A stretch of 60,684 nt of DNA from positions 1 through 60,684 of the IMG/VR virus record IMGVR_UViG_3300009129_000015. The stretch is one strand, 5' to 3'. The translations under genes were made by a program, and so were the position numbers. This document shows, piece by piece, positions 8,007 to 46,614 of the stretch (position 1 is the stretch's first letter; each line of letters opens with the position of its first letter). The stretch is from a virus. The notes under the pieces were generated by a model. That model had not been told where the DNA came from. It did no database searches and worked only from the letters and a program-made list of their open reading frames with translations.

Positions 8007-8747
8007 TTATTCTTGATACTTTGATATAACTTCTATCCTTTTTATTTCATTTAGATCAATTGGGTCATTTTCATTCCATTTCTCGAATAAGCTCCTTTCC
8101 TCATTTGTCAAGGCCATATTCCATTTATCTTCAAAATAAAAATATTTCCTTGCAATATCACCTCGGATTTCTGGTGTAGGTTCTACAACCCTATTTAGCC
8201 GCTCGAAGTCACACTTACCATATATTCTTTCTTCTCCTTCAATTATTCCAAAGGGATAATTACTTCTGTCTCCATTTAGTTCACCCACGGCCGGAAGAAG
8301 ATTCATCATGTCCGCTTCCATATGTCGGAACTCTTTATCAATCTTTCCGCAGCACTTTCTTCCTGCTTTTCCTTTGGGGCATATATTATCATTTGTCCAG
8401 CATTCTCTTGTGTGGCCGAATCTATGTGCAGGCACAACATGTTCCCATTCAATCCTTTTGGATCTACTATTTGTGGATTTCCTTGGTATGTATCCACAAG
8501 ACTCTGGAACAGGCTTTTTGGTATTAGGGTCAAATTCGCATTCACAATAGAAGGTGACTGACTCTATTTCGCCTCTTTGGTATATCTTCTGGAGTTTCTT
8601 CTTTGCAGAAGAGAACGACCAATTGATATTAGGAGTCGGATAGAGAGCGCGACTATCACGCGAGATTAGCCCGTAGCTGGCAGTAATCATGGAAGCACTC
8701 ATTACAGTAGGAATCACATATCTCAATACAATTTTATTTAAATTCAT
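8007..8747 (-). CDS. Exported endonuclease I (EndA/Endonuclease_1 family)
   Basis: 246 residues. The first about 26 residues form a signal peptide (KIVLRYVIPTVMSASM core). The body carries EWEHVVPAHRFG (catalytic His about 103) and ELNGDRSNYPFG (about 156-167), the hallmarks of the His-Me-finger endonuclease I family, plus several cysteine pairs expected in a periplasmic enzyme. It cuts double-stranded DNA non-specifically outside the cytoplasm. Its ATG overlaps the IscA-like stop (TAATG). In a phage, a secreted nuclease could destroy superinfecting or extracellular DNA, or act at lysis; that role is inference. Confidence 0.88.
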   Translation of the reverse strand: MNLNKIVLRYVIPTVMSASMITASYGLISRDSRALYPTPNINWSFSSAKKKLQKIYQRGEIESVTFYCECEFDPNTKKPVPESCGYIPRKSTNSRSKRIEWEHVVPAHRFGHTRECWTNDNICPKGKAGRKCCGKIDKEFRHMEADMMNLLPAVGELNGDRSNYPFGIIEGEERIYGKCDFERLNRVVEPTPEIRGDIARKYFYFEDKWNMALTNEERSLFEKWNENDPIDLNEIKRIEVISKYQE

Positions 8748-9106
8748 TATAATGAAAAACTTTCTCCGCATCCACATGTGTTAGTTGCATGGGGATTGTG
8801 AAAGGTAAATCCCTTTCCTGTCAATCCATCGTCGTGATCCAAAGTAACGCCAGAGAGGTAGAAAACACACTTAGCGTCAAGATATGCATTAAAATTGTCA
8901 GCCAGCTTAATGTATGTGTCATTTTCATTTATATCGTCCTTTGTCATGTAATCCATTTTATATGAAAGCCCAGAACACCCACCACCTTTGATTCCTACGC
9001 GGACGCCAATGATGGATTGACTGTCAGGTTCGTTGGACATATTATCAATAAGATGATGCTTTGCCTGTTCTGTAATATTCAATAACGAAGAATCAATCTT
9101 AATCAT
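8747..9106 (-). CDS. A-type iron-sulfur carrier (IscA/ErpA/HesB-like)
   Basis: 119 residues from MIKIDSSLLNITEQAKHHL. All three cluster ligands are present: C44 in GGGCSG, and C111 and C113 in NTCGCGESFS at the C-terminus. Length and motif order match the whole A-type carrier family, which hands Fe-S clusters to target apoproteins. hesB-like genes are known accessory metabolic genes of marine T4-like phages. It overlaps the Cys-rich gene at 9099-9305 by 8 nt and is coupled to the endonuclease. The target is unknown. Confidence 0.92.
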   Translation of the reverse strand: MIKIDSSLLNITEQAKHHLIDNMSNEPDSQSIIGVRVGIKGGGCSGLSYKMDYMTKDDINENDTYIKLADNFNAYLDAKCVFYLSGVTLDHDDGLTGKGFTFHNPHATNTCGCGESFSL

Positions 9107-9305
9107 TACACTCACAATCCACGCATTCACAATTCTCGCATTTGCATTTGTGCATGGCTCGCTCCTTTTCAATCTTCTCTAATCTGTCTGCAATAATATG
9201 CGCGGCATTATCGAACCCTTGTATGATTGCATCCGAATATGCCTTTGAGGTACTTTCAATTGTCCTCGTAATGGTATCAGTAATTCCTGTATCAAAAATA
9301 CTCAT
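9099..9305 (-). CDS. Small protein with metallothionein-like Cys-rich tail
   Basis: 68 residues: an amphipathic helical body (STSKAYSDAIIQGFDNAA) and a terminal HKCKCENCECVDCECND with seven cysteines in 14 residues, which should bind metal. It is translated just before the IscA-type carrier, with an 8-nt overlap, so a shared role in iron or Fe-S handling is plausible but unproved. Not a family I recognise. Confidence 0.65.
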   Translation of the reverse strand: MSIFDTGITDTITRTIESTSKAYSDAIIQGFDNAAHIIADRLEKIEKERAMHKCKCENCECVDCECND

Positions 9306-10995: not shown

Positions 10996-11003
10996 TATTT
11001 ATA
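10996..11003 (-). promoter_or_regulatory. T4-type late promoter
   Basis: Exact TATAAATA octamer on the minus strand, 31 nt before the HNH gene ATG. It is the element used by gp55-directed RNA polymerase. It would drive the genes from 10965 down to 7833. Confidence 0.75.
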
Positions 11004-11478
11004 TAATAGTTATTTCGGAGTTGGATATAAATGTATTTGCAGAAGTAATATTAAATGTATCAAGATCCCTGTATGATGTTGCAAAGCATTGCTCATTAAT
11101 AACAAATGCAGTATTTGTGTCCTGTGATATTACAGACAATTCTCCCGTATTGGCCAACAATGGAGTAAACTCATTCCATGTCCCAGATACCGAAAGTTCT
11201 TTGGGAGCAATCGTTATTGATACTGAATTATCATTTGATGCAACACATCCAAAGGCAACGCCATCAGTTCTTGACATTAATGCCGGAGAGGTTATTGTAT
11301 TGTTCAATGTCCACGCAGACCAATTGCCTTCCGTTCCCGTAAATGTGTCGATAGACCCTGTTGGAAGAAATCCAATCATTTGGCCTGTCGGCTCGGACCA
11401 TACTTCTTCTCCAGTATAATCGCAGGAAACCAGATATAAAAAATGATCCTTTGTAGAAACCATTGTAATTTTTCTCAT
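10999..11478 (-). CDS. Adhesin-cassette protein, paralogue of the gene at 46617-47111
   Basis: 159 residues starting MRKITMVSTKDHFLYLVS. It aligns with the 164-residue protein at 46617-47111 (MRKTTMIATEGHFLF; G-x-P-I/M-GF-x-x-x-G-x-x-x-T-F-T; FVI/VLE-x-x-C; D-L-x-T-F). Both copies lie downstream of a glycine-rich adhesin and a small protein of about 80 residues, so the set is a duplicated cassette. It is probably a virion or fibre-associated beta-rich protein or chaperone; no named family. Confidence 0.65.
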   Translation of the reverse strand: MRKITMVSTKDHFLYLVSCDYTGEEVWSEPTGQMIGFLPTGSIDTFTGTEGNWSAWTLNNTITSPALMSRTDGVAFGCVASNDNSVSITIAPKELSVSGTWNEFTPLLANTGELSVISQDTNTAFVINEQCFATSYRDLDTFNITSANTFISNSEITII

Positions 11479-11482
11479 ATGA

Positions 11483-11920
11483 TTACACCCATCCCTCCAA
11501 CACCATTGACTTCATATCTGCCGAAGTTACAGTCTTATCTCCTGCCACAGTTGAAATTGACGGTGGGGGAGTATCTGGAATTCCTTGTGCATACCATGAT
11601 GGAGTATATCCTTGCATAAAGTCATAGTAATTAGTTGCATCTTCTGGCATGATTTGATTTACCACAGAAGCATTATCAGAACGAAGCAATGTCAAGAACG
11701 AGGCATCTGTCGTTGCAGTCACAGAGAGATTGGTGCCTGACGGAACATCATTGACCGAAATTGCATCATAGGATGATCCTCCTATCGTCACAGTTCCTTT
11801 TGTGACCACAATCTGATACATCTCATCGACAGACCATGAGTAGTCAATCGTTTCTCCTGCGCTCAGGATATTTGCAATGACCAGACTCTTCTGGTCGAAT
11901 GTAGTTTTCACAGATGCCAT
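11483..11920 (-). CDS. Beta-rich adhesin-cassette protein
   Basis: 145 residues, MASVKTTFDQKSLVIANILS at the start, mostly Ser/Thr/Val-rich beta strands with little charge, like fibre tips or carbohydrate-binding folds. It lies between two genes duplicated elsewhere in the window, but I see no counterpart of it in the other cassette. Function unknown; a virion component is likely from context. Confidence 0.6.
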   Translation of the reverse strand: MASVKTTFDQKSLVIANILSAGETIDYSWSVDEMYQIVVTKGTVTIGGSSYDAISVNDVPSGTNLSVTATTDASFLTLLRSDNASVVNQIMPEDATNYYDFMQGYTPSWYAQGIPDTPPPSISTVAGDKTVTSADMKSMVLEGWV

Positions 11921-11932
11921 TATTTGTTTCTC

Positions 11933-12160
11933 CTAAGTGTTTATTCCTATAATTATATTATTTGCCGCAGCCAATTCCCTATGACCAAATACAAGTTCCT
12001 TGGCTTTGTTTTTTATCCATGCCATATCTGCGGTTCCGTCTTGATTTAACTCAAGACCAATATTTGCACAGTCTACTACAAGTTCTGCTCCGTCATGTAT
12101 TTTGACTTGACATACTTTTTGATCTGTATTCATATATATAATCTCGACTGTTATGTCCAT
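11933..12160 (-). CDS. Small adhesin-associated protein, paralogue of the gene at 47108-47371
   Basis: 75 residues. I chose the ATG at 12158-12160, which overlaps the adhesin's stop (ATGGACATAA) and aligns with the paralogue's start. Both share NIGLELN-(Q/P)-D-x-TA-x-x-x-WI-(K/R)-NK. It always follows a glycine-rich adhesin here, which suggests a fibre-folding or adaptor role. No named family. Confidence 0.65.
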   Translation of the reverse strand: MDITVEIIYMNTDQKVCQVKIHDGAELVVDCANIGLELNQDGTADMAWIKNKAKELVFGHRELAAANNIIIGINT

Positions 12161-14886
12161 ACGCCATCCCATCCCGCGACCGCATAATCTGAATTATGAT
12201 TTGTAACTGTTGTGTTTATTATAACGTTTGCGGTATCTGCCCAGACAATATTTCCTTGCCATCCGCCCTTATATGCAACGTGCCCAGAAGCATCGTTGGT
12301 TCCGTCAGATCCAAAATTAGAAGATCCTCCGGTTGTCATATTTCCGCCTGCGCCTCCAGCAGAACTAAGTCCTCCGCCGCCACCGCCGCCACCACCATAC
12401 ATTCTTCCGGTTGGCATATTAACAACATTAATATTCACAGTCTGTGTATTAGAAAATTGAGAGTTAGACTTTACATATATAGCAGATCCTCCTGCATGAC
12501 CATTAATTCCTCCCCCGCCACTAGCTCCAGAGCCAGCCTTGGCTCCTCCAGCCCCACCTCCATTCAAAGTTCCTTGGGCACCATCTGAAGCACCAGTCCA
12601 TTTCTCTCCGCCTTGGCCAGCCACCCAGGCCCCTCCGGCAAAATTATCGAGCGAGCCAAATTTTATTGAGCTTCCCCATGTTGGATGTAGCCCTTGGCCG
12701 CCACCGCCGCCGCCACCACCATGATTCTTTACTGAGCATCCTGTGGTAGAATCAGATCCCCCATATCCACCAGAGCCGCCTGCGCCGATTGTGTTTCCGC
12801 GATTTACAATCGTAATGTGCAAATCACCTAAACTAGAATTGTGAAAATGATTTGAATTTAAATTAATAATCAGGCTTGGATCAGAAAGATATTGACCAAA
12901 GGAATCTGATCCAGACCACGATGGATCCCAGTCCTTTCTTAATTCATATTTTGCTCCAGAAAAAGTTCCAGAACCACCCAAGGTTTGTGAACCAAAATTT
13001 CCAGAAGTGTTTGCACCAATATTCATTCCTTCTGGAATTTCAAAGATAATAAAAATCGGGCCATCTGTATAATCAATTGGTCCGCTTCCAGTTCCATTTT
13101 GTCTCAATTCGGCAAATGGATCTTTTGAGGTTCCTTCAAGACCTTCTGCAATATAATCTTCTGGAAATTGTATACCATAAAAATTCCCATCAGAATTTTT
13201 TCTACTGGTATAATAAGAAAGGGCATTCACATGAACAACTTTTGGAATTTGAAAATCTACAACTCCTCCCGAAGAATTATTATCGGTACTCACCGAAGAC
13301 GATTTAAATGACCCAGCCCCGGCACCAATTCCCCCACCGGGATTATATACAATAGGAAGTGTCCTAATTGAAGGTGGCTCTGGCCCAATCATCATCCCAT
13401 GAAGAATAAATTCACAATTTAAACTGTTGCTGGTTGCAGTTGCCCCGACTCCATATACAGGATGCCCGCCGCTGACTGGATTGTCTGGATCAATCCATTT
13501 CTCGATGGTATCCCCGGGCCCATAATTTCTCATTGTACATAATCCAAAACGATTCACGGAAGTAAACAGAGTATTTGATAAAAATGGCATACCACCAGAA
13601 ACAGATATTCCATCTCCAGATCCATATGGAGCGGCAACATTGGCAGAATATCTATGTGAAAGATCTAGTCCATATCCTGCCGAATTGGGATATTCTAATC
13701 CTGTGCCCGGATCTTCGAGTCTAAGCCTGGGAAAAAATCGACCGAAATGCCTCCGAGCCTGGTGATTGACCGGGCCGCCTTGGGTTCCGTCATAAAAATT
13801 AGAATTCCAAAAACCATCCCCATCTCCACCGTATCCAAAAACAGGATCTTCTACATGTGAATAATGTTCCCCTGAAATTGAAGTATTTCCACGGCCAGCC
13901 GAAGTCCCATTTGTAGGATTTAAATATCCACCAATTTTTCTTTCTGGTTTTCCGTCATATCCACCACCAGACATTCTTGAAAGATCCCAAGTAATTGAGA
14001 CTATTTTCCCCTTGTCTCTGGAAGACAATCCACTTCTTGGGTTTCTTGAACCCTCATGTCTCGGATATAAATTTCCATTTTCATCGTAAAGTGGAATTCC
14101 ATTAATGTGTGATGGTTTTAACCATCTAGTATTTGAATAACTATACTCCAGGTCTTCGCTCTCTCCTGCGTGCGGACCCCAAATACTGTCATATATTGAC
14201 AACGGGGCTGCAATGTCATATCCTACTTGATTTACTATAGTACCTTCGGTGCCGACCGTAGTATTTCCGTTTGTTGTGCCATTAAAATCAGGATGGGCAC
14301 TTCTTAATCTGCTCATTATTACCAAATCAAAGTCGAGTGGAAGTGGTCTATCCTTACTGAAAGTTGTAACAATTGTAAAATACTTATTAGCTTCGCTTAT
14401 CATTCCACCAGGAATTTTATCTGTATTCTGTTGATTTGAGGAATCGTTTTCAATTCTGGGAGAAATTGCATCGCTGTTAATATCTCCTGTATATCTAATT
14501 TCTATTAATTCTTTATATCCGTATTGTCTGTAGGTGCCTTCGTCGTCCGGGGTTTCGTGAAGAATATTATTGGTTCTTGAAACCTTCCATCCTGAAGAAA
14601 CTTTATCTACAGAATATACTTGATCGTATGCCCTGTTTGTTGCGCCCGAATGCGACTGATTGACTTGAATGAAAGGAAAGGCTGTATTCAGACTATACCC
14701 ACCAGTCGCTGGTTGTTCTCCGGTTGTCAGGGCCAGGGCGTTTGTTGGGCCCTTATTGGCATAACCGAGGTTGTTATAATTTCCAACAGATTGCCTGGAA
14801 AGATCCCAGGCCCAAGAATATGAATATGAATCTATGGATGATGTTACTGAAGAAACAATTCCAATTCCGGCGGGTGAAATTTTCAT
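12151..14886 (-). CDS. Glycine-rich receptor-binding adhesin
   Basis: 911 residues. The N-terminus MKISPAGIGIVSSVTSS...YSWAW is shared with the 233-residue protein at 19299-20000 and is likely a virion-attachment module. The middle has no clear family. From about residue 690 the protein becomes a glycine-rich tip with long Gly runs (SVKNHGGGGGGGGQG and others), like the polyglycine sandwiches of T-even gp38-type adhesins, which carry the host-range loops. It probably sits on the head spike or tail as a receptor-binding protein; the spike base gene is directly upstream in the operon. Confidence 0.75.
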   Translation of the reverse strand: MKISPAGIGIVSSVTSSIDSYSYSWAWDLSRQSVGNYNNLGYANKGPTNALALTTGEQPATGGYSLNTAFPFIQVNQSHSGATNRAYDQVYSVDKVSSGWKVSRTNNILHETPDDEGTYRQYGYKELIEIRYTGDINSDAISPRIENDSSNQQNTDKIPGGMISEANKYFTIVTTFSKDRPLPLDFDLVIMSRLRSAHPDFNGTTNGNTTVGTEGTIVNQVGYDIAAPLSIYDSIWGPHAGESEDLEYSYSNTRWLKPSHINGIPLYDENGNLYPRHEGSRNPRSGLSSRDKGKIVSITWDLSRMSGGGYDGKPERKIGGYLNPTNGTSAGRGNTSISGEHYSHVEDPVFGYGGDGDGFWNSNFYDGTQGGPVNHQARRHFGRFFPRLRLEDPGTGLEYPNSAGYGLDLSHRYSANVAAPYGSGDGISVSGGMPFLSNTLFTSVNRFGLCTMRNYGPGDTIEKWIDPDNPVSGGHPVYGVGATATSNSLNCEFILHGMMIGPEPPSIRTLPIVYNPGGGIGAGAGSFKSSSVSTDNNSSGGVVDFQIPKVVHVNALSYYTSRKNSDGNFYGIQFPEDYIAEGLEGTSKDPFAELRQNGTGSGPIDYTDGPIFIIFEIPEGMNIGANTSGNFGSQTLGGSGTFSGAKYELRKDWDPSWSGSDSFGQYLSDPSLIINLNSNHFHNSSLGDLHITIVNRGNTIGAGGSGGYGGSDSTTGCSVKNHGGGGGGGGQGLHPTWGSSIKFGSLDNFAGGAWVAGQGGEKWTGASDGAQGTLNGGGAGGAKAGSGASGGGGINGHAGGSAIYVKSNSQFSNTQTVNINVVNMPTGRMYGGGGGGGGGLSSAGGAGGNMTTGGSSNFGSDGTNDASGHVAYKGGWQGNIVWADTANVIINTTVTNHNSDYAVAGWDGVWT

Positions 14887-16255: not shown

Positions 16256-16651
16256 CTATAATACAGAATTTAATCCCACAATCCCATGCCATGCATCCCC
16301 TGGATTCAGACCACTCACAGAAATCAGAGTATATTTCTTTGTCTGAGTAAGGTATGTGAGTTCCACGGGGAACTTCATGCGGTTGTCGAGTGCCATCTTT
16401 CCGATTGTGCATATAAGATGCCCGCCTCCTGTCTCGGTTTTACAAAACAACAAACGGCAGTCGTGCCCCTTTTCTTTCAGGAGCATCCGACAGGCAATCG
16501 CAAAGTCATCACAGTCTCCCTCGAAGTTGTCTACATTCTCTGGGAATCTCCAGTCCTCGCGAGTTCCATGCTGCTCCATGTCCGAAACATATGTGAATCC
16601 ATCTTTGACTCTATCAAATACGTCGAACGAATCTTTTACATAATCACTCAT
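16256..16651 (-). CDS. Transglutaminase-like cysteine peptidase (BTLCP-type)
   Basis: 131 residues. The sequence NFEGDCDDFAIACRMLLKEKG places the catalytic Cys at about 47, followed by GGGHLIC (His about 77) and a later Asp in MALDNR, giving a complete Cys-His-Asp triad of the bacterial transglutaminase-like cysteine proteinase group. The gene lies next to a lipoprotein and a membrane protein, suggesting envelope or virion work. Substrate unknown. Confidence 0.75.
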   Translation of the reverse strand: MSDYVKDSFDVFDRVKDGFTYVSDMEQHGTREDWRFPENVDNFEGDCDDFAIACRMLLKEKGHDCRLLFCKTETGGGHLICTIGKMALDNRMKFPVELTYLTQTKKYTLISVSGLNPGDAWHGIVGLNSVL

Positions 16652-27920: not shown

Positions 27921-28880
27921 TTATTGGTTCAAAATAAAATCAGTATCACTCAACAACATGACGAGCAGGGCCATACGAATATATAGGCCGTTCTCTACCT
28001 GTCTGAAATATGCCGCTCTCGGGTCATTGTCCACTTCGGGCAACAATTCATTTACCCTTGGAAGTGGATGAAGAATTCGTGCATCGGGTTTCATCAGTTT
28101 CAATAAATCAGCATCAACACGATACTCGGCTTGCCTATGATATTTCTGATACAACGCAAAATCGTTTTGGTCGAATCGTTCCTTCTGTAGTCGTGTCTGA
28201 TATATCACATCGACCTTTGGTGCAACATCTTTCAGGTCTGCACTAATGGTCAAGGGAATATCTTTTTCGGCAACATGGAGCAGGAGTTCTCGCTTCAGCT
28301 TGACGAACTCAGGAGATACCAAATACAGATGACCAATGTCCTTGTATTGTGCCAAGAGATATAGCAAAGAATGAATGGTCCGACTGTGTGCCAAGTCACC
28401 AACCAATGCAATGCTCTTTCCATTCACTCCACCACATTCTCGGCGTATGGTATACAGGTCAATGAGTGCCTGTGTCGGATGCTGGCCCTCTCCATCCCCG
28501 GCATTGATGATGGGTGTATCCGGGCAAACCAATGCAGCCGCTTCGGCGGCACCCTCCTGTGAATGTCGAAGGACAATCACATCCGAATAGGCAGCAACCG
28601 TGCGAACAGAATCTTCAAGCCGTTCTCCCTTTGCTGCCGAAGAGAAATTTGTTGCGCTCTCTGTGGAGATAACATCCCCGCCCAACTTTTTCATTGCTGC
28701 CTCAAACGAAAATCGTGTGCGAGTGGACGGTTCATAGAAAAGCGTTGACATGAGAAACCCTGAGTTTCTGAGCATGGGAATCGGATTGTCTCGTATCTTG
28801 TCTGTCACCTCAAAGATTCGCTTTAGTGTTTTCTTGTCAAATTGCTGTGCCTTCAAAACGTGTTTCATGTCTTCTCTCAT
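27921..28880 (-). CDS. pyrB: Aspartate carbamoyltransferase catalytic subunit
   Basis: 319 residues from the ATG at 28878-28880, placed 17 nt after the gp47 stop with AAAAGGAAA upstream. Carbamoyl-phosphate motif STRTR at about 52-56, catalytic Lys about 84, HPTQALIDLYTI at about 134, and ILHPLPRVNE at about 269-278 are all intact, so it should be an active catalytic chain (condenses carbamoyl phosphate and aspartate to carbamoyl aspartate, the committed step of pyrimidine synthesis). No regulatory PyrI is present in the window, so it would be free of CTP inhibition unless it joins the host's subunit. It lies between gp47 and gp46, genes that are usually adjacent, and so looks like an acquired accessory metabolic gene. 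Confidence 0.95.
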   Translation of the reverse strand: MREDMKHVLKAQQFDKKTLKRIFEVTDKIRDNPIPMLRNSGFLMSTLFYEPSTRTRFSFEAAMKKLGGDVISTESATNFSSAAKGERLEDSVRTVAAYSDVIVLRHSQEGAAEAAALVCPDTPIINAGDGEGQHPTQALIDLYTIRRECGGVNGKSIALVGDLAHSRTIHSLLYLLAQYKDIGHLYLVSPEFVKLKRELLLHVAEKDIPLTISADLKDVAPKVDVIYQTRLQKERFDQNDFALYQKYHRQAEYRVDADLLKLMKPDARILHPLPRVNELLPEVDNDPRAAYFRQVENGLYIRMALLVMLLSDTDFILNQ

Positions 28881-28896
28881 TATAACGATTTCCTTT

Positions 28897-29943
28897 TTAT
28901 GCGTTTGAAATTGCCTCTTCAAATAACGATCTCATCAACCCCTTGACCTCATCCTTATTGTCATAGGGCGCTTGCTCCACATAGTCATTCAGAATTTCAA
29001 GCGTGGATTTTGATTCGATATGCTCTAGTGCCACATCATCACTATTCAATACGTCCGTATTGTCAATGATTTGTAAATGCCAAGGGTCTGCCGCTTCCAT
29101 CTCTATGACGAACTTGTCGAAGATATACTGGTCATTTATTTCATTTGCAATAACCTTGACTGCCCTTCGTGTATACTCCGAGAAGTCAACCTTCCCGGCA
29201 AGAAATTCATCCTCTACATCTGCATCATAGAACACCTTGGAAAACATCTTGAGTGGATTGGGCACAAATTCCAATTCGAGCGTGTCTGTATCGAACACAT
29301 GGAATCCACGCTCTTCTCCATAGTCAATCCATGTCTGTTCAAATGGGCTACCCAAATACCACACGTTGTCCATGTGCGACCGTGTATGAAAATGCCCGGA
29401 AAACACCATGTCGAATCGCCCGAAGACTTTTCTGTCCATGCCATCCATTGACACCGAACCCTTTGCAAACGGAAACCCAACAAGATTCAAATGACCAAAG
29501 ACAATCTTGGCCCGTGAGTTTTTGATGCACTTGATGGTGTCGTCCTCGTTTCCCGAATTAATCCAAGGCACCATGAGAACGTTCAGACCATCGAAAGAAA
29601 CTTCGGTTGCCTCTTCATATACGTCAATGCCATCATTGAACAGGCAGTCCATTGAATTGACACGATTGGTATTCTTGTAGTAGGTGTCATGGTTGCCAAT
29701 GATAATGGAAAGGTCATACTCGTATCGCATTTTGTCAATGACCTTCTTGAACCGATGCAATGTCTTGTAACTAATCCACTTGCGCCTGTCCGTCACATCT
29801 CCAAGATGGATAATGGACTTAATCTTGTGCTTCTCCAAATACGGAAAGAATTGCTCATACCAAAACCTCTCTTGATACGCCGCAAAGGTATCGCTGTCTC
29901 CGCGAATCCCTGCATGAGTATCTGTCACCAATGCGATTTTCAT
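28897..29943 (-). CDS. 47: Recombination endonuclease subunit gp47 (Mre11/SbcD-like)
   Basis: 348 residues from MKIALVTDTHAGIRGDSD; GGAGG lies 9 nt before this ATG, better than the ATG three codons earlier. Metallophosphoesterase motifs are in order: DTHAG, GDVTDRR (near 50), GNHD (near 84), GHFHTRS (near 180). It is the nuclease partner of gp46. It starts 2 nt after the gp55 stop. Confidence 0.94.
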   Translation of the reverse strand: MKIALVTDTHAGIRGDSDTFAAYQERFWYEQFFPYLEKHKIKSIIHLGDVTDRRKWISYKTLHRFKKVIDKMRYEYDLSIIIGNHDTYYKNTNRVNSMDCLFNDGIDVYEEATEVSFDGLNVLMVPWINSGNEDDTIKCIKNSRAKIVFGHLNLVGFPFAKGSVSMDGMDRKVFGRFDMVFSGHFHTRSHMDNVWYLGSPFEQTWIDYGEERGFHVFDTDTLELEFVPNPLKMFSKVFYDADVEDEFLAGKVDFSEYTRRAVKVIANEINDQYIFDKFVIEMEAADPWHLQIIDNTDVLNSDDVALEHIESKSTLEILNDYVEQAPYDNKDEVKGLMRSLFEEAISNA

Positions 29944-29944
29944 A

Positions 29945-30556
29945 TTACACATCCTCCGGCTTCACGTTTGTTGCATACTGTAGAAGGTTGTTCGCTGCCA
30001 CCGCTGCCTTCTTTTTCTTTTTAACTCCTCGCTTATGTTTAATTTCTTTTTTCTTTTGTACAGAATCCTCAAAGGTTCCAATAAACTCACTCATATTGTC
30101 ATATAATTTTGTAAATCCAATACTGGTGGCTCCGTTCTTTTGATGTTCGTTGTTATGTTCGTTTAATATTTCTATTATTTGAGAATTTTCTAATGATTTA
30201 TATTTGACATAAAGCTGCTTCTTTTCTTTTTGTATTCTTCGCAAGAACGCATAATATATAATTTGAGTAAAATAGGCAAATGGATTCTTTGACTTTTCTG
30301 GATCAAAATTATGAATATACTGAATGCAATTTTCTATGCCATCTGAAATCATGTCTTCTCGAAATGCATAATTAATGAAATTTGATTTATAAGAGAGCCT
30401 GTTGGCAATGCTCATAAAGATTTTTCCAATGTCATCGGGAACTGTTGGCAGTTCCTTTCCTGCCTCTTTGGCTTCTTTTGTTGCAGCCTTAAATTCAATC
30501 ATATATTGAAGAAATTGTTTGTTGTCTACATAATGTTCTGGTTTCTCCCTGCTCAT
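29945..30556 (-). CDS. 55: Late-transcription sigma factor gp55
   Basis: 203 residues. The block FREDMISDGIENCIQYIHNF followed by DPEKSKNPFAYFTQIIYYAF and LRRIQKEKKQ (about 70-120) is the sigma region 2-like core of the T4 gp55 family, which recognises the TATAAATA late promoter. The C-terminal part is very basic. It overlaps uvsW by 4 nt. The window's repeated TATAAATA boxes are its expected targets. Confidence 0.92.
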   Translation of the reverse strand: MSREKPEHYVDNKQFLQYMIEFKAATKEAKEAGKELPTVPDDIGKIFMSIANRLSYKSNFINYAFREDMISDGIENCIQYIHNFDPEKSKNPFAYFTQIIYYAFLRRIQKEKKQLYVKYKSLENSQIIEILNEHNNEHQKNGATSIGFTKLYDNMSEFIGTFEDSVQKKKEIKHKRGVKKKKKAAVAANNLLQYATNVKPEDV

Positions 30557-32055
30557 ACAAGACTCCCTTTATTTTTTGATGCTGTTGCTTTTGGTAATTT
30601 TACGTTATATGATTTTACCTTGAACTTCTCTGATTTGTAGATGTCGAACCTCTCTTGGTAGTGACGAAGAGCAAAGTTTCTTGTCTTTCGGCCACACGAC
30701 AGGTCATCTACAATATCATACAGGATTGCCTGTTCGTCCTCGTCCTCCCCCAACCTTCTCAATGCTCGCCCAATGCTCTGCAATGTTCTGATGCGCGACT
30801 TGCCGGGATGAACAAAGACCACATTGTTGAGTCGTTTGATGTTGATACCCGTAGAGTAGACACCAACGGATGCAATGATGATTGCATTTTCTTCTTGTTC
30901 TACCTGCGAGCGAACTGCCTCCCGGTCGTTGACATTCGTACCCCCATGCACAAAAAAGACCTTTCGACCATCAATGTTTATCATGTCGAACAACGGGACA
31001 CCATGCTTTTCTATATAGTTGAACAAGACGAGCGTGTTTCCTTCAAGACTCAGAACCAGATTCTTGATGAACCTGTTTCGCGAATCGCTGCCTACAAGAT
31101 AATCAATTTCCTCTTGGTATTTTAGTTTGGACGACACCTTCTCTTCGTGTTTTAATATAATTGCCTTGACAATGAAATCCGAAAGCACCTTTTCGTCAAT
31201 GAGCTTCTTGGTTCCAATGACCTTTCGGACTGGCCCGAGCAACCCTTCGATGACCAATTTGTTTGTCTGCATTCCATCCAAGGTTCCTGTCGTGCCGAAA
31301 CGATATTTGACATTGGGTGTCTTTGTCAGAATACCCATGAGCGATTTGGCTTTTACTCCATGACACTCATCGACCACCACCATTCCGAACTGTTCAAAGT
31401 AATCCTTGCGGAGACGAAAGAGCGACTGCCATGTCGAAATCACAATAGGGCATTCGGTTTCCTTTGGTCGGCCCGACATGATTTGATGAATACCAATATC
31501 CGAAGGCATATTATAGTCGGCAAAGTCCTGGGACATCTGTGCCACCAATGATGTGGTCGGAACAATGATAAGAATCTTCTTGTTCTGTGCCTCCATATAG
31601 AACCGAGTGAGCAGATAAATCATAAGGCTCTTGCCGGAACCCGTAGGCGAAAGCAAGAGCATCCTCCGCTTTCGGACTGCTGCCACAAACGCATCCACTT
31701 GGTAATTTCTTGGTGTGTATTTGGAAGGAATCCCCAGAGTTTCAATGAACTCGACTGCCTCATGGACAGAAAAGTTCTCGTCTGCATCAGATTCTACGTC
31801 TTCATACTCTACAACATAATCTCGCTCTTCGGCAAATGCATTAATATATGACACCAGCCCGGCATAGATGGTTCCATCCTGTATGTTAAAAAGTCTGATC
31901 TTCCCATCCCATGTGCCATGCCTATAGGCCGGCATGAACCGATAGCCCGGAACCTCAAATGTGAAATGGTCTGACAATTCACGGAGAGCAGAGCGTTCGT
32001 CGGAGCGGACACGAAGATAGACTTCGTTCAGTTTCTGGACTTTGAGTATATCCAT
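30553..32055 (-). CDS. uvsW: UvsW helicase
   Basis: 500 residues from MDILKVQKLNEVYLRV, 17 nt after the uvsY stop; the family normally begins this way, so I reject the start that overlaps uvsY. An N-terminal domain with YRFMPAYRHGTWDGKIRLF, Walker A SPTGSGKS (about 136-143), DECH box (about 229-232), motif III FGTTGTLDG and a C-terminal RecA domain with SIGRALRRLGEDE. It unwinds R-loops and branched recombination intermediates and helps switch from origin- to recombination-dependent replication. Confidence 0.94.
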   Translation of the reverse strand: MDILKVQKLNEVYLRVRSDERSALRELSDHFTFEVPGYRFMPAYRHGTWDGKIRLFNIQDGTIYAGLVSYINAFAEERDYVVEYEDVESDADENFSVHEAVEFIETLGIPSKYTPRNYQVDAFVAAVRKRRMLLLSPTGSGKSLMIYLLTRFYMEAQNKKILIIVPTTSLVAQMSQDFADYNMPSDIGIHQIMSGRPKETECPIVISTWQSLFRLRKDYFEQFGMVVVDECHGVKAKSLMGILTKTPNVKYRFGTTGTLDGMQTNKLVIEGLLGPVRKVIGTKKLIDEKVLSDFIVKAIILKHEEKVSSKLKYQEEIDYLVGSDSRNRFIKNLVLSLEGNTLVLFNYIEKHGVPLFDMINIDGRKVFFVHGGTNVNDREAVRSQVEQEENAIIIASVGVYSTGINIKRLNNVVFVHPGKSRIRTLQSIGRALRRLGEDEDEQAILYDIVDDLSCGRKTRNFALRHYQERFDIYKSEKFKVKSYNVKLPKATASKNKGSLV

Positions 32056-32072
32056 GTGGGTGTGTAGTTCTT

Positions 32073-32537
32073 TTAACCGTTGATTCCGTTCGTGAACTGC
32101 TTCCACTTGATCGCATTGGTGATCTGAAAACTGCGATTGTTGATGCTACTGATAATAGAATTCAACAGGGCACACTTTTCTCGCTGGTCGCCAATCATGA
32201 CCAAGTTTTGAATAACATCCGGGTCGCCTTCGATATACTTTGGAACATCTCCCTTGAGAATCTTGAGAGTCGGCGGTTTCCAATTTCGTTCTTCAAGGTC
32301 TTCTTCACACATCTTCCCAGAGTAATATTCGTGCTTGTCCTTCTCCAGCATCTTGTGGGTGAACATCATTCGGTTGAGGATGCGATTCTCATCGTTCATA
32401 ATTTTCATGTATTTGGAATGTAGCTGGGGAATCTTGAGGCTTTCAAGGTCAAGCTCCAGATCGTCAATCTTGGAATCCACATCCCAGAGTTCATGAATCA
32501 TTTCTAACGTGAATGGTTTTTCTTCAAGAGTTGTCAT
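32073..32537 (-). CDS. uvsY: UvsY recombination mediator
   Basis: 154 residues, the usual UvsY size. Helical N-terminal half with LELDLESLKIPQLHSKYMKI, a central YYSGK...P-x-LK-ILKGDVPKYIEGDPDVI that matches the family's LK-DV-YI-D core, and an amphipathic C-terminus. It loads UvsX recombinase onto gp32-coated single strands. It is the first gene after the consensus sigma70 promoter at 32654-32681. UvsX itself is not in this window. Confidence 0.9.
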   Translation of the reverse strand: MTTLEEKPFTLEMIHELWDVDSKIDDLELDLESLKIPQLHSKYMKIMNDENRILNRMMFTHKMLEKDKHEYYSGKMCEEDLEERNWKPPTLKILKGDVPKYIEGDPDVIQNLVMIGDQREKCALLNSIISSINNRSFQITNAIKWKQFTNGING

Positions 32538-32596
32538 GTTTTAAATATACCTTTCATTTTCAATATAATATATGTGAAATTGCTATTTTATTTAAA

Positions 32597-32634
32597 ACTC
32601 CAGTTTTATTTAAAATCCAGCCCCAGCCTGGAGT
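32597..32634 (-). promoter_or_regulatory. Leader hairpin upstream of uvsY (attenuator-like)
   Basis: ACTCCAG/CTGGAGT (32597-32603 with 32628-32634), followed on the minus strand by TTTTAAAT. It lies between the sigma70 promoter and uvsY. A direct repeat of TTTTAAATAAAA occurs in and after the hairpin. It may attenuate transcription or end read-through from the gene above. Confidence 0.4.
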
Positions 32635-32653
32635 CCTCTCACACATGGGGCCT

Positions 32654-32681
32654 ATTATAATCACCAAACAAGAGGTGTCAA
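32654..32681 (-). promoter_or_regulatory. Consensus sigma70 promoter for the recombination module
   Basis: Minus strand TTGACA (32676-32681), 16-bp spacer, TATAAT (32654-32659): both boxes perfect. It is placed just after the stop of the gp19-like gene and about 115 nt above the uvsY ATG. It gives uvsY, uvsW, gp55, gp47, pyrB, gp46, and the Mom-like gene an early start independent of late transcription. Confidence 0.85.
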
Positions 32682-32689
32682 GCCCAAAC

Positions 32690-33193
32690 TCAAATTTTTT
32701 CGTAGGTATATGTCAGATACCTGAAGGTTGCCGATGCCTTGATTCCTTCAATATCGGCAGATGCCGAATCAAATAAAACTTCTGATAAATTAGTTGGAAA
32801 TAGGTCTTTAAATATAATTTGATAATTGGGGTTCATATTTGAATTCAGGACGGTGAGCGTTGCATCTGAATAAATGTGCTTTTCCTTTTGGGCGTCATAT
32901 TCTGGATATTCGTGAGGGAATCCCAGGCCAGCCATCCAGTCATAGAGTTCCTTCCAATTCTGAAGGTCTTCGTCCACAAGAAACTGAATGTTCAATGGGT
33001 CAAAAACAAGGGTGTCTCCGGGGACTGCCGTCTGAAGAAATGGGGTAGGCTGGGGGGCTTCACCAAGAGTGATTCCGGGGAGGTTTACCGAAGTCAGAAA
33101 CCAATTGGTGTTCGGAAGCACTTCAATATAAAATCGAAACCCTACAGGAGATAGGTAGTTGATGTTGTCTGGTGAATTGAATGATTTTGCCAT
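32690..33193 (-). CDS. gp19-like tail tube/tail completion family protein
   Basis: 167 residues. The sequence PVGFRFYIEVLPNTNWFLTS, then VNLPGITLGEAP, then DPLNIQFLVDEDLQNWKELY and GFPHEYPEYD is the small gp19-like family found beside gp23 and uvsY in marine T4-like phages. It is clearly different from the gp19 at 38690-39232. Probably a tail tube, terminator or baseplate element; the exact role is not known to me. Confidence 0.75.
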   Translation of the reverse strand: MAKSFNSPDNINYLSPVGFRFYIEVLPNTNWFLTSVNLPGITLGEAPQPTPFLQTAVPGDTLVFDPLNIQFLVDEDLQNWKELYDWMAGLGFPHEYPEYDAQKEKHIYSDATLTVLNSNMNPNYQIIFKDLFPTNLSEVLFDSASADIEGIKASATFRYLTYTYEKI

Positions 33194-33242
33194 GCACGGT
33201 GCCTCCTATTGTGTATTTAGGCGACGGGCGGCCGAAAAGAAA

Positions 33243-33279
33243 CGAGGAGTGTCTCTCTGTATGAGAAAGACACCCCTCG
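33243..33279 (-). terminator. Terminator after gp23
   Basis: Stem about 12-15 bp, CGAGG-GTGTCT type (33243-33257 with 33263-33279, one wobble on the transcribed strand), followed on the minus strand by TTTCTTTT. It lies about 30 nt beyond the gp23 stop, as expected after the most expressed late gene. Confidence 0.75.
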
Positions 33280-33307
33280 ATTTCTTTTTTTATACTACTT
33301 GGTATTA

Positions 33308-34651
33308 CTAGCCAGCAAGATTGTTGACTGCAAATGCCCTGTAGTATCGGTTGTTCTGACCAATCGCCACGGTGGAGATGCCAGTTGTCGTTGCAAATGG
33401 ATTCACACCGACACCGTAGCGGGTCTTGAATCCAATCTTGGGTTGGAATGTTTCCTCGCCAATTGCACGGACCATCTGGAGTGGAACGTATGGGCAGTAG
33501 AACATTCCTGCGTCATATGGCGACGATCCCTTATATCCGACACACACAAAGTCGTCTGCGGTGAAGGAGTAGGGGTCAATGTAGACCTTGAGTCCTGCAC
33601 CAATGGTTCCGGCAAATGTGCTTCCTGTGTCGTCTACCGTGAGTGCGGCAGTCGGGTCAAGAACACCAGCCGTTGCAAGAGCAGAAGCAACATCACTTGA
33701 GCAGAGAATGAAGTTGCCCTTCCCTCGACGAGTGTTCTTTGCAATGGCATTGGCTTCTGTCTCAATCTTGTAGACAAGAGCCTTGAATCGCTCCACAAGC
33801 CAGCGACCATCAAGTGAACCAAGCCCTGCTGCATTATTACCAGAAGGTGCGGCACCTCGGGCGTCAATGGCAGGTCTGCCAGTACAACTCATGTAAATCG
33901 AGCGAACAATTTCACGATTGATTTCTGCGTTGATCTCGGTCGTGAGAATATTTGCAAGCTCAGTCTCGGCATCAAGACCATGAATTGCCTTCAAGTCCTG
34001 TGCCAGTTCTACCGAATACTCTGCCTTGAGGGCCCGAGTAACGGCAGTCACACTCGACTTGTCGATCTTGAATGACATGGAAGGAATCTGGTTGGTTGCA
34101 GCAGAGCCCCATGCCTCGCCCTTTGCTGTCGTGTTACCTGTAAGAATACCAACATCTTCGGTTGACGCGGCATTGAACATGAGGTTGGCGTGCCCGGTGC
34201 CATTCCAGACAGGCTTGTTTGCGCCTGTGTTTGGATTGGCAGCCGAATAACCAGACTTGGCTTCGTCGTAGAATGCATTTGCGCCATCGGCATCGCCTTC
34301 GTTCCGCGTGCCATATGTTGGGCGAAGTGCAAAAATCAGACCCGTCGGGCCGGACATTGGCTGGACACCCATGACATCAAATGCAATGAGATTAGGAGCA
34401 GTTCGTCGCACAAGGCTGATAAGAACAGGGTCAAACTTGGCAACATCGCCCGTGACTGTTTCTGGGGCAAGAGATTCGCCAAGAAGACTTGTCGAACCCG
34501 CTCCTGTTACTGATGCTTGTTCTTGAAGAGCTATCTCTTGCTGCTCAAGCATGTGTGCTGTGACAACCTTTCGGTAATTATTCTTGATCTCAGGAAGATC
34601 CGTATGGTCAAGAACTGGTTGCCATTTGTTAACTAGCTGTTCATTCAACAT
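33308..34651 (-). CDS. 23: Major capsid protein gp23
   Basis: 447 residues, the short form typical of marine T4-like phages. It begins MLNEQLVNKWQPVLDHTDLP, carries a LLGE site near residue 58 where gp21 would cut the N-terminal delta domain, and has the MSGPTGLIFALRP and GRWLVERFKALVYKIETEAN blocks of the family. It forms the hexamers of the prolate head. A late promoter lies 60 nt upstream and a strong terminator follows. Confidence 0.95.
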   Translation of the reverse strand: MLNEQLVNKWQPVLDHTDLPEIKNNYRKVVTAHMLEQQEIALQEQASVTGAGSTSLLGESLAPETVTGDVAKFDPVLISLVRRTAPNLIAFDVMGVQPMSGPTGLIFALRPTYGTRNEGDADGANAFYDEAKSGYSAANPNTGANKPVWNGTGHANLMFNAASTEDVGILTGNTTAKGEAWGSAATNQIPSMSFKIDKSSVTAVTRALKAEYSVELAQDLKAIHGLDAETELANILTTEINAEINREIVRSIYMSCTGRPAIDARGAAPSGNNAAGLGSLDGRWLVERFKALVYKIETEANAIAKNTRRGKGNFILCSSDVASALATAGVLDPTAALTVDDTGSTFAGTIGAGLKVYIDPYSFTADDFVCVGYKGSSPYDAGMFYCPYVPLQMVRAIGEETFQPKIGFKTRYGVGVNPFATTTGISTVAIGQNNRYYRAFAVNNLAG

Positions 34652-34710
34652 GTGTTTACTCCTTAAAAAATCGTTGAATTAGATAATCTCTTCAACAGTA
34701 TCCTAATGTT

Positions 34711-34718
34711 TATTTATA
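34711..34718 (-). promoter_or_regulatory. T4-type late promoter of gp23
   Basis: Exact TATAAATA on the minus strand, 60 nt before the gp23 ATG, in the gp22-gp23 gap. Confidence 0.85.
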
Positions 34719-34720
34719 AA

Positions 34721-35989
34721 TTATTGATTTTCAACAACAGTTCTTCCAAGCGTACTTACATATGCAGCCATCGTAGAGTTTGGTGGTGCCTCTTCGGTGC
34801 CTGCAAGACCATTCTCAGAAACTTCAAACTCTTCATCAAGGGTGGTCGTCTTTCCATGAACTGTCCTTGGGAAATAATTCTCTTTAATTGTCTCAAGAGC
34901 AGTTCGATATTGGTCTACATCTTCAAAAGCAACTCCCTCTGCAAGGCCCTTCATCTTCTCTGATTCAATATCAGTCAGTTCATCAGAAAGGCTTGTCAGA
35001 ATTTCATCCTTTTGAAATCCTTTGACCTTTGAAAAAAGGTCAATATTTTTTTCGACGGTTTCATTGAGTTCTTGTTCCAACTGGTCAACTCGCTCGGCAA
35101 GACTGTCTACCACATCGACCTTCTCTTCTGGAACATCAATGTAATGGTCTTCAAACAGTTGCTTGAGTCCACCAATAAATTCTTCGGTAATTTCCGACTT
35201 GATCCCGCGCTCGATTGCAAGTTCGTTGTCCTTGATCCATTCTTCTACAACATAGGACAGATAACTATCCACCTTGTCGGTGATTGTGGAAAGGATGGAT
35301 GCCTCTGATTCCTGCAACTTGGCACCAAATGATGCTTCCATTGATTCCAGTTCAGAATTAATCTTTGCAACCACGGCAGCTTCAAAAATTGTCTGAACCT
35401 GTGACTTGAATTCTTCTGAGAGATCATTCTCTCCAAAGATTGCATTAAGGTCTTCTGAAATATCAATATCATCGCTGGTAATGACCGTGCGCTCAATGGA
35501 AAGGGGAATTTCAATTGAATCGTCATCCTCATCTTCTTCTACAGCTTCTCCAAGAAGGTCGTCCATGAGCTTGGCATATGCACCTGCCAGCTTTTCGGCA
35601 TCTGTGTCCTTCATGGTTTCAAAGATTGAACGAATCATTTCTTGCTTGGTCGTGGGAAGGTCGCTCTCTTCGGCCACCTCTTCGGCAGACTCTTCCGCAT
35701 TAGTCTCTTCTTCTTCATAGACTTCAATTTCGGAAGGATCGTCGCCCTCTCCCTTGGTTTCTGCCCCTGCCTTGACCTTCTTCTTGCTCAACTTCTTGCC
35801 CTTGGGTGTGGCGGCCTTTGTTACCTTACCACTCTCAGGAGCAGAACCAGTTGCACCACTTCCAGGCTTGTCTGGAGATTCGGTAGAATCTTCTGCCAAT
35901 TCGTATTCAATCTCATTTGCAATATCATTTGCAATCTGGTCAATTTCTTCATCAATTGAGATTTCTGCGGTATTTAATTCGGTTGCCAT
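34721..35989 (-). CDS. 22: Prohead scaffold protein gp22
   Basis: 422 residues from MATELNTAEISIDEE; AAGGAG lies about 10 nt before this ATG and a longer frame lacks a site. Extremely acidic, helical and coiled-coil-rich (SLAERVDQLEQELNETVEK), with many (I/L)xE sites, as expected for a scaffold that gp21 degrades to peptides during head maturation. Position between gp21 and gp23 confirms the call. Confidence 0.85.
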   Translation of the reverse strand: MATELNTAEISIDEEIDQIANDIANEIEYELAEDSTESPDKPGSGATGSAPESGKVTKAATPKGKKLSKKKVKAGAETKGEGDDPSEIEVYEEEETNAEESAEEVAEESDLPTTKQEMIRSIFETMKDTDAEKLAGAYAKLMDDLLGEAVEEDEDDDSIEIPLSIERTVITSDDIDISEDLNAIFGENDLSEEFKSQVQTIFEAAVVAKINSELESMEASFGAKLQESEASILSTITDKVDSYLSYVVEEWIKDNELAIERGIKSEITEEFIGGLKQLFEDHYIDVPEEKVDVVDSLAERVDQLEQELNETVEKNIDLFSKVKGFQKDEILTSLSDELTDIESEKMKGLAEGVAFEDVDQYRTALETIKENYFPRTVHGKTTTLDEEFEVSENGLAGTEEAPPNSTMAAYVSTLGRTVVENQ

Positions 35990-36039
35990 TATATCCATCT
36001 CCTTAGAAAGAATGGAAGAATCCAAAGGTTATTCTTAGT

Positions 36040-36047
36040 TATTTATA
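36040..36047 (-). promoter_or_regulatory. T4-type late promoter of gp22
   Basis: Exact TATAAATA on the minus strand, 51 nt before the gp22 ATG. Confidence 0.8.
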
Positions 36048-36051
36048 AATC

Positions 36052-36708
36052 CTACAATTTTGACAAGAAGTTTTTGAAGAGATTTATCTTTGCCTCTTCC
36101 AACTCCTTCCTTCTTGCTTCCATGTTTACTTGCTTCTTGTATTGTTCTATTTCTTTTTCTCGTATGACGCCATTATCCCAGATCCATTCCTTCCCCTCCA
36201 TGATACCCTCGACAAATGCTTCTGGAGCAGACGGGTCTGCAACAATATCTGCGGCAGTTGCAAGATAAAAGTCATCTTGAACCACATTGGTTCCACGTTG
36301 ATTCTTGAGTGAACCCATGCCGCGTGAAGAAACACCCAACTTGGCACCTTCGTCAATGAGATTCTTGACAATCTTGCCATAGGGAGTGTCCATGATCTTT
36401 GCCTTGCCAATCCAGTTGTTTCCATCTTCCTTGAGTTCCTTAATCATATGCGAAACTCGTTCAAGGTTGACTACCGGACCATCGGGGTGGCCAAGTTCTC
36501 CAAATGCCCTGTTCTGGTCAACATAGTTTCCGATGTACTTGTATACTTCTTTGTTCAGGACTTCTTTGGGATAGATGCGGCCATTGCGATTCTTTTGTTC
36601 GGCTTGCATGAACACGCCCTTGATATAATGACTCTTTTCACCTTTGGCATTCTCTTCTGTGACAAACTCAATATTTTCGTCTGTCATGATTTCGGTGATT
36701 AGCTTCAT
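36052..36708 (-). CDS. 21: Prohead core protease gp21
   Basis: 218 residues, standard family length. NGRIYPKEV, catalytic His in FGELGHPDGP (about 74) and catalytic Ser in GVSSRGMGSL (about 127/128) mark the T4 prohead protease family. It is also its own likely substrate: MKLITE|IM at the N-terminus fits the (I/L)xE rule. It cleaves gp22, gp23 and packaged internal proteins during maturation. Confidence 0.93.
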   Translation of the reverse strand: MKLITEIMTDENIEFVTEENAKGEKSHYIKGVFMQAEQKNRNGRIYPKEVLNKEVYKYIGNYVDQNRAFGELGHPDGPVVNLERVSHMIKELKEDGNNWIGKAKIMDTPYGKIVKNLIDEGAKLGVSSRGMGSLKNQRGTNVVQDDFYLATAADIVADPSAPEAFVEGIMEGKEWIWDNGVIREKEIEQYKKQVNMEARRKELEEAKINLFKNFLSKL

Positions 36709-36710
36709 TG

Positions 36711-36893
36711 TTATGCTTCCTCGTCTTCGGATGCAGCTTCAACATCATTCAACCAGCGATTTGAAACTTCCATCTTTTTCGTTTTAAGGGCATCGGAAAC
36801 CTTAGAAAATAAAACAGAATTTATCTTGTCTGCCATTTCGGAAGGCTTTTCCCCAAGAGCATCTTTGATTGCCGCTTTAATTGTAGTTTTCAT
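36711..36893 (-). CDS. Prohead core protein (gp67/gp68-like)
   Basis: 60 residues between gp20 and gp21, the position of gp67/gp68 in T4. It reads DKINSVLFSKVSDALKTKKM in the centre, matching the INS-x-LF-K-x-x-A-L pattern of small core proteins in marine T4-like phages, and ends in an acidic tail. An ALGE site near residue 14 may be cut by gp21. Confidence 0.7.
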   Translation of the reverse strand: MKTTIKAAIKDALGEKPSEMADKINSVLFSKVSDALKTKKMEVSNRWLNDVEAASEDEEA

Positions 36894-36913
36894 TATAAAT
36901 ATCTCCTATTCTT

Positions 36914-36921
36914 TATTTATA
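36914..36921 (-). promoter_or_regulatory. T4-type late promoter
   Basis: Exact TATAAATA on the minus strand, directly after the gp20 stop and 21 nt before the core-protein ATG at 36893. Confidence 0.7.
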
Positions 36922-38607: not shown

Positions 38608-38621
38608 AAAATGTAGCCTCT

Positions 38622-38678
38622 CCAGCAGGGGTGGATTGATATATAATACCTATATGTGTATATATGTTCCCCTGCCGG
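38622..38678 (-). terminator. Long hairpin between gp19 and gp20
   Basis: CCAGCAGGGG/CCCCTGCCGG (38622-38631 with 38669-38678; the single mismatch is a G-U wobble on the transcribed strand) around a 37-nt AT-rich loop. It is the terminator of gp19 or a leader structure in front of gp20, whose ribosome-binding site follows it. Confidence 0.5.
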
Positions 38679-38689
38679 ATAGGTTTTGA

Positions 38690-39232: not shown

Positions 39233-39263
39233 TATTTACTCTCCTTGATATGTATCCTAATTC

Positions 39264-39271
39264 TATTTATG
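39264..39271 (-). promoter_or_regulatory. Late-like promoter of gp19 (CATAAATA)
   Basis: Seven of eight bases match TATAAATA; minus strand, 32 nt before the gp19 ATG in the gp18-gp19 gap. Confidence 0.5.
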
Positions 39272-39280
39272 CTCTAATCC

Positions 39281-41032: not shown

Positions 41033-41089
41033 TGTATTTTCTCCTTTGAGGATATGGCAAGCTCAAATGACCATAAACTAATTCCTGAA

Positions 41090-45861: not shown

Positions 45862-46147
45862 AAGGATTGGATTCCTTGACTGCCTTAATCTTCCTATACC
45901 ATGTACCAGAGGCAACATTTGCAGAAATATTTCCATTGTCAATATCATGCCATAACATATCCAATTGATCTGTAATGCTGGGATATGCATCTGCCCGTTT
46001 CTTTTGTCTTTCTTTTATTTTTTCTATTTCCTCTTTTCTTTTTCTGACCTCTTCGGCATGTTTTCTTGCGTGTTCTTGCTGTTTCTTTTGTTTTTCCAAT
46101 AGATCTAAAGTTAACAAATTATTTGTATTGTTTTTATGAAATTTCAT
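45857..46147 (-). CDS. Small fibre-associated/assembly protein (YPSIxDQLD motif)
   Basis: 96 residues from MKFHKNNTNNLLTLDLLEKQ; the ATG overlaps the upstream stop (TAATG). A long charged coiled coil (about 20-60) is followed by ADAYPSITDQLDMLWHDIDN, a motif common at the C-terminus of phage tail fibres and small fibre-assembly proteins, where it probably folds or caps the fibre. It is the last gene of the adhesin block. Confidence 0.65.
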   Translation of the reverse strand: MKFHKNNTNNLLTLDLLEKQKKQQEHARKHAEEVRKRKEEIEKIKERQKKRADAYPSITDQLDMLWHDIDNGNISANVASGTWYRKIKAVKESNPL

Positions 46148-46614
46148 TGAATTACTCCTGTAAGGGCAATTGTATAATTTTTTGAATAATAACCATAACA
46201 AGAAACCTTAAAAGAAATATAATTTTCGTTAGGGTTGGCGGAAATTCCATTTGCAGTAAATTCAACACTATTATCTGTATTATTTGCCGTAAATGATTCT
46301 CCGTCATATTCTAAAACAGAACCCGAAACTAAATTTGAAACTAAAACAACATCTGTTCCATTGGCAACAAGAACGTTGTTGCTGACCTGTACAAAATTTA
46401 TGTGTTGGACTGGAGCAATTGATTCTGTTTGCCCCGTAATTGCATTTTTTGTCACATATGCGCTCGGAGAAAATTTCCCAGGAGAGTCTATATGAAATGT
46501 AATTTTTCTATCTCTTAAATTTTTTATATGATCTGATGTTGGATTGTCTATTGTATATGATAATATTCCGGTGGACGGCTCATATGCATAAATTGTTTTA
46601 TTAAAAATAGCCAT
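46144..46614 (-). CDS. Beta-rich adhesin-cassette protein
   Basis: 156 residues, MAIFNKTIYAYEPSTGILSY at the start; Ser/Thr/Asn-rich beta strands such as SVEFTANGISANPNENYISF suggest an immunoglobulin-like or carbohydrate-binding fold. It lies downstream of the 164-residue paralogous gene. Not recognised. Confidence 0.6.
   Translation of the reverse strand: MAIFNKTIYAYEPSTGILSYTIDNPTSDHIKNLRDRKITFHIDSPGKFSPSAYVTKNAITGQTESIAPVQHINFVQVSNNVLVANGTDVVLVSNLVSGSVLEYDGESFTANNTDNSVEFTANGISANPNENYISFKVSCYGYYSKNYTIALTGVIQ

Follow-up and report, generated by a model that had tools for sequence, protein, structure and literature searches.

Diverged copies of a glycine-rich adhesin cassette beside the head-spike base gene and in the tail-fibre block of a T4-like phage

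Why should a phage carry the same set of adhesin genes twice, once beside a head-spike gene and again among its tail-fibre genes? This question is raised by the IMG/VR virus record IMGVR_UViG_3300009129_000015. Its 60,684 nucleotides, analysed at full length and called the window here, belong to a T4-like myovirus with terminase, portal, major capsid protein, sheath and neck genes and three tRNA genes. A first-pass annotation had reported a glycine-rich adhesin gene followed by genes for two small proteins, here called NIG and MRK, at two places in the window. The duplication is real. Copy A and copy B (Table 1) lie where they had been reported, in the same order and direction, and both are on the minus strand. 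It was also claimed that one copy stands by a head-spike base gene, and P0012 does match NF048002 (E 3e-15, 56.2 bits, cut-off 28). The three-gene cassette was found in both copies, but it had been overlooked that copy A holds a further gene, P7, and that another gene, P8, follows copy B. Copy B stands immediately before P8 and the neck genes, and its place is called the neck locus below, that of copy A the spike locus. The two loci probably hold diverged copies of one exchangeable adhesin unit, carried on head-spike and tail-fibre anchors.

The homology of the two copies is clear for the small proteins. The NIG pair P0003 and P0004 is 45% identical (24/53 residues, E 7e-16), and the MRK pair P0005 and P0006 is 33% identical (55/165, E 9e-26). 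By BLASTP, the adhesins P0001 and P0002 gave one short match (29% over 98 amino acids, E 5e-5). Thus far, such a weak pairwise match might be explained by chance or by low complexity in unrelated proteins that are rich in glycine. The C-terminal modules of ten adhesins from the window and related contigs were aligned (alignment A9) and cut before the first glycine run, separate profiles were built for the spike-locus and the neck-locus copies, and 40 shuffled decoys were made per sequence. In the part before the glycine runs, the two profiles match with an hhalign probability of 99.2% (E 1e-19). Each profile recovers members of the other set, and none of the shuffled decoys was matched. Since the non-glycine segments match and the decoys never do, the likeness goes beyond glycine composition, and a composition artefact was ruled out. 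The NIG and MRK companions also match independently and in the same order, so that chance resemblance is refuted with practical certainty. The first-pass annotation had named a lack of significant similarity between profiles as the result that would speak against it; hhalign found the opposite. The conserved core of the module is approximately FPDDFV...DPF..RD. The invariant columns of A9 are mostly glycines in GGGGGG-type runs, and several glycine-rich motifs are conserved in the distal module. The N-terminal parts of P0001 and P0002 have no detectable relationship. The claim of a duplicated adhesin therefore holds for the C-terminal modules, to which the homology is confined.

Is this cassette found in other phages? 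A tblastn search of P0001, P0002, P0003 and P0005 against 50,697 phage records gave zero homologues, and the cassette proteins had no convincing match in PHROGs, Pfam, NCBIfam or PDB (not every protein was compared with every library). IMG/VR contains close copies of the window phage, at about 99.9%, and more distant relatives. When strain variants were searched for recombination between the two loci, the near-identical contigs G001-G004 yielded only copy B. A 52.7-kb contig, G014, whose capsid protein is 75% identical to that of the window, carries the two cassettes in the matching places. On L185, L189 and L190, the spike locus holds a cassette with P7 and a spike base nearby, and L185 and L190 are nearly identical there; on L187, only the spike base and P7 are visible. 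The spike bases of G014, L185, L187, L189 and L190 all belong to the Rcc01079 family. Seven contigs (L117, L122, L128, L132, L134, L135 and L138) have a neck-locus cassette without P7. Of the loci of either kind, 13 include the upstream gene, and in all 13 of them NIG and MRK come directly after an adhesin module. Scans with alignments of the spike-fibre-like proteins and of the P7 subtype found no further contigs. Two other genes were observed around the spike locus. A diiron/ferritin-like protein is encoded beside the cassette on L190 (3777-4880) and L185 (3231-4334) and nearby on G014 (42199-43347), and the gene was not seen at the corresponding place in the window; the L190 protein has weak matches to AurF, DUF455 and Phenol_Hydrox, below the cut-offs. 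A transglutaminase-like cysteine proteinase (PF06035, E 1.3e-9) is encoded near the window's copy A and kept near the G014 spike locus with 57% identity.

The module, NIG and MRK are common to both loci; the anchor, P7 and P8 differ. In the neck-locus adhesins, the module is fused behind an MDRV(I/L)(L/I)GK-type domain, which resembles the starts of the neighbours P0010 and P0011. Copy A is without this anchor, which the tail-block genes have in common. In the Rhodobacter capsulatus gene transfer agent (RcGTA), residues 2-10 of the head fibre (IALGLGLGL) occupy five hydrophobic pockets of the spike-base pentamer (PMC7296036). The spike-locus adhesin of L185 and L190 starts with MEGINLKISLGVNIS and has six alternating hydrophobic residues, and that of L189 starts with MGVVLKITFGLNIS and has five. 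At least five such alternations within the first 16 residues occur in 4 of 1502 non-redundant open reading frames (ORFs), namely these L185/L190 and L189 adhesins and two ORFs of about 100 amino acids on the minus strand of their loci, a figure that measures rarity and is not a blind test, since the pattern was picked when the RcGTA paper and these sequences were known. The pattern is absent from the neck-locus adhesins examined. On G014, a spike-fibre-like gene (MKLSSGLGLPSV) lies between the spike base and a free-standing adhesin gene. Its relative in the window, P0013, is a separate gene, and the first 29 residues of P0001 match the P0013 profile with a score of 31, versus 21.9 for the best of 100 shuffles. 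The spike-locus adhesin, or the gene before it, thus seems to start with an RcGTA-like docking peptide, clear in L185 and L189 and degenerate in the window; for the window's own P0001 and P0013, the evidence of head-spike docking is no more than suggestive.

Does a cassette stay at its locus? On contig L193, an adhesin end, NIG, P7 and MRK stand directly before tail-fibre-assembly and neck genes. Compared with the spike-locus copies of G014, its P7 is 75%, its MRK 60% and its NIG 48% identical, and the MRK pair has a support of 100/99. The neck proteins of L193 and G014 are only 45% identical, whereas those of the window and G014 are 77.6% identical. Another contig, L212 (JABSPC010000722.1; 3.2 kb, from a Crocinitomicaceae metagenome-assembled genome), has NIG, P7a, MRK and P7b in this order, with neck genes immediately after them; the L212 P7b shares 61% identity with P7 of the window. 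With P7-type cassettes at the neck loci of both L193 and L212, it appears that cassettes are passed from locus to locus and from lineage to lineage, unless these two short contigs are both misassembled. The L212 scaffold consists of T4-like neck genes and the cassette and reads as phage; the Crocinitomicaceae bin therefore seems to hold phage DNA, which gives a weak hint of a Bacteroidota host. The two loci may even owe their cassettes to separate horizontal acquisitions from a common pool and not to one duplication, for which I see a little less than an even chance. The NIG and MRK of the window's spike locus are closer to neck-locus copies than to the G014 spike-locus copies, and the G014 spike copy is sister to the L193 neck copy. 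On the other hand, a single clade of P7-type cassettes was not rejected by the approximately unbiased test (p 0.11 for NIG, 0.18 for MRK), in weak trees that did not include L212.

How would one unit serve two anchors? It would consist of a glycine-rich receptor-binding module and its dedicated partners NIG and MRK. In the tail block, the module lies behind an MDRVxLGK domain that the neighbouring fibre proteins also have, and it is therefore expected to form the end of a tail fibre. The spike-locus module may be tied to the RcGTA-type capsid spike base via its own docking peptide or via a spike-fibre-like domain or gene. The virion would then grip its host with the same kind of adhesin on its head spikes, in an early and reversible contact, and on its tail fibres.

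Both cassettes might instead encode tail-fibre tips, copy A being a spare or alternative tail adhesin that lies near the spike base by chance and gives the phage a second tail specificity. This is rather unlikely. It would agree with the P7-bearing cassettes directly before the neck or tail-fibre-assembly genes of L193 and L212, and those glycine-rich adhesins whose site is known form the tips of tail fibres (Pam3 gp24, PMC9608196). However, copy A does not have the MDRV anchor of the tail-block genes, the L185 and L189 spike-locus adhesins begin with the RcGTA-like docking peptide, and a spike base is beside or near every spike-type cassette that has enough downstream sequence.

Several findings nevertheless weigh against one unit on head and tail anchors. 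The docking peptide of the window is degenerate, with two strict alternations in P0001 and one in P0013. L193 and L212 have P7-bearing cassettes of the spike type at their neck loci, and so gene position is a poor guide to the virion site. The neck-locus adhesins of L109, L127, L130 and L131 have no adjacent NIG and MRK, and P8 comes directly next in three of them; thus, the partnership is not obligatory as neighbours. In family libraries and fold searches, NIG and MRK match no known chaperone family. I infer the virion location, the receptor binding and the roles of NIG, MRK and P7 from the genes. The idea of the first-pass annotation, a single adhesin system used at two sites of the virion, is supported in part. 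The common module, NIG and MRK, the differing anchors and the presence of both copies in G014 speak for this proposal; the degenerate peptide of P0001 and the P7-type cassettes at the neck locus speak against it. A system in which the unit is mounted on capsid spikes as well as on tail fibres, and in which swaps between loci and phages renew host recognition at both ends, is conceivable but on present evidence somewhat doubtful.

What might the small proteins do? The NIG model (predicted local distance difference test score, pLDDT, 90.6) has three strands and one helix and gave zero matches to solved folds. For MRK, the model (pLDDT 79.3) shows a beta-barrel, with cupins as its nearest folds (Foldseek E 2e-4, probability 1.00, template modelling (TM) score about 0.45). 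NIG and MRK appear to be two undescribed small families. P7 was considered as an MRK paralogue, and the comparison showed no relation; P7 and P8 are also unrelated. Because NIG and MRK accompany the module and not either anchor, they most likely fold, cap or assemble it. Folding or assembly is my first choice for how they would serve the module, since Pam3 gp25 acts as chaperone to a glycine-rich tip (PMC9608196), and a structural subunit the second. As subunits, NIG and MRK would remain in the virion, as a collar or as a second binding site with MRK as a cupin-like sugar-binding barrel. I regard this with some reserve. The barrel of the MRK model points in this direction, and since the assembly proteins of Mu and Ur-lambda remain in the virion (PMC9608196), helper and subunit roles can overlap. 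Against it, the TM score is low, only His12 is invariant among the possible metal ligands of 14 sequences, the conserved ligand set of catalytic cupins is not seen, and no fold was matched by NIG.

As a rule, head spikes and tail fibres are regarded as attachment organs without relation to each other. If the two-site reading is true, a homologous adhesin with the same two partners at both loci, together with the traces of exchange between these loci, would offer a natural way to study what the head contributes to attachment beyond the tail. NIG and MRK would then probably be required for making or mounting the glycine-rich adhesins of these T4-like phages.

The setting of the cassettes is summarised in Table 1. 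Contig G004 is 100% identical to the window over the 2185 bases compared at their overlap and extends past the window end, where its genes look baseplate-like from their sequences. The last large ORF of the window is the 3′ part of a giant fibre gene, which was followed on G004 in the range 28872-45000. With the coordinates of both joined, the gene is open for about 17.6 kb and encodes a very large fibre-like protein of about 5,880 amino acids. An aspartate/ornithine carbamoyltransferase-like gene (PF02729, PF00185) amid recombination-type phage genes may possibly be an auxiliary metabolic gene. Two further genes of the window encode a protein for the biosynthesis of iron-sulphur clusters (PF01521) and an Endonuclease I of the secreted type (PF04231).

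Table 1. Positions of the two cassettes and of other features in the window (aa, amino acids)
Feature	Coordinates	Strand	Length	Remarks
Copy A, whole	14886-10999	-		order adhesin P0001, NIG, P7, MRK
Copy A adhesin P0001	12151..14886	-	911 aa	N-terminal part starts MKISPAGIGIV, spike-fibre-like; glycine linker near 513-535; adhesin module about 538-911
Copy A NIG P0003	11933..12172	-	79 aa	"NIGLELN"; from comparison with relatives, translation more likely starts at a later ATG (12160)
P7 (P0007)	11483..11920	-	145 aa	between NIG and MRK; in copy A only
Copy A MRK P0005	10999..11478	-	159 aa	predicted beta-barrel, nearest cupins
Copy B, whole	51531-46617	-		order adhesin P0002, NIG, MRK
Copy B adhesin P0002	47392..51531	-	1379 aa	MDRVILGK anchor domain; adhesin module about 901-1379
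Copy B NIG P0004	47108..47371	-	87 aa	
Copy B MRK P0006	46617..47111	-	164 aa	TTG start overlapping the NIG stop
P8 (P0008)	46144..46614	-	156 aa	after the neck-type cassette only; none behind copy A
Fibre-like P0011	51538-52860	-		MDRVLLGK start in common with P0002
Fibre-like P0010	52867-55593	-		MDRVLLGK start in common with P0002
Spike base P0012	14923..15300	-		RCAP_Rcc01079 family; adjoins copy A
Spike-fibre-like P0013	19299..20000	-		G014 orthologue between spike base and adhesin
Terminase	41115-42731			
Portal	36922-38607			
Major capsid protein	33308-34651			
Giant fibre gene, 3′ part	55614-60684			last large ORF
Carbamoyltransferase-like	27921-28922			
Iron-sulphur cluster biosynthesis protein	8747-9172			
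Endonuclease I	8007-8777			
Transglutaminase-like cysteine proteinase	16256-16651			

How does this arrangement compare with known systems? A literature search for homologous adhesins on head and tail found nothing relevant, subscription papers being mostly outside its reach. Glycine-rich tail-fibre tips are reportedly present in Salmonella phage S16 as gp38. Another such tip is Pam3 gp24, with its chaperone gp25 (PMC9608196). As in these proteins, the distal module has repeated GGGGxGG-type motifs and a small protein is encoded alongside. Unlike them, the module here is also found at a second, spike-linked locus, and it has no detectable sequence match to them; among PDB chains, the best match of the adhesins was to unrelated proteins (E 0.008), and no solved glycine-rich adhesin was matched. 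NIG and MRK also differ from the chaperones Tfa of Mu and lambda, T4 gp38 and Pam3 gp25 in that they match no such family or chaperone fold. Immutovirus (Flavobacterium phage vB_FspM_immuto_2-6A, NC_055915) is likewise T4-like, and it has a spike base of the same family, followed by a gene starting with MYIGLGISL. Its spike base lies directly after the major capsid gene, however, its putative head fibre is made of repeats, and its spike locus has no glycine-rich adhesin, NIG or MRK. The closest comparison is the RcGTA head spike, with base Rcc01079 and head fibre Rcc01080 (PMC7296036, PMC10218006). The spike base is of the same NCBIfam family, a fibre with an N-terminal alternating-hydrophobic docking peptide is encoded beside it (here clear in L185 and L189), and proteins of both head and tail contact the host surface, as the genes suggest for the present phage. 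In RcGTA, the head fibre and the tail fibre both bind the capsule without detectable homology to each other (PMC10218006); here, by contrast, the distal modules of the two loci are homologous and are accompanied by two small partner genes at both sites.

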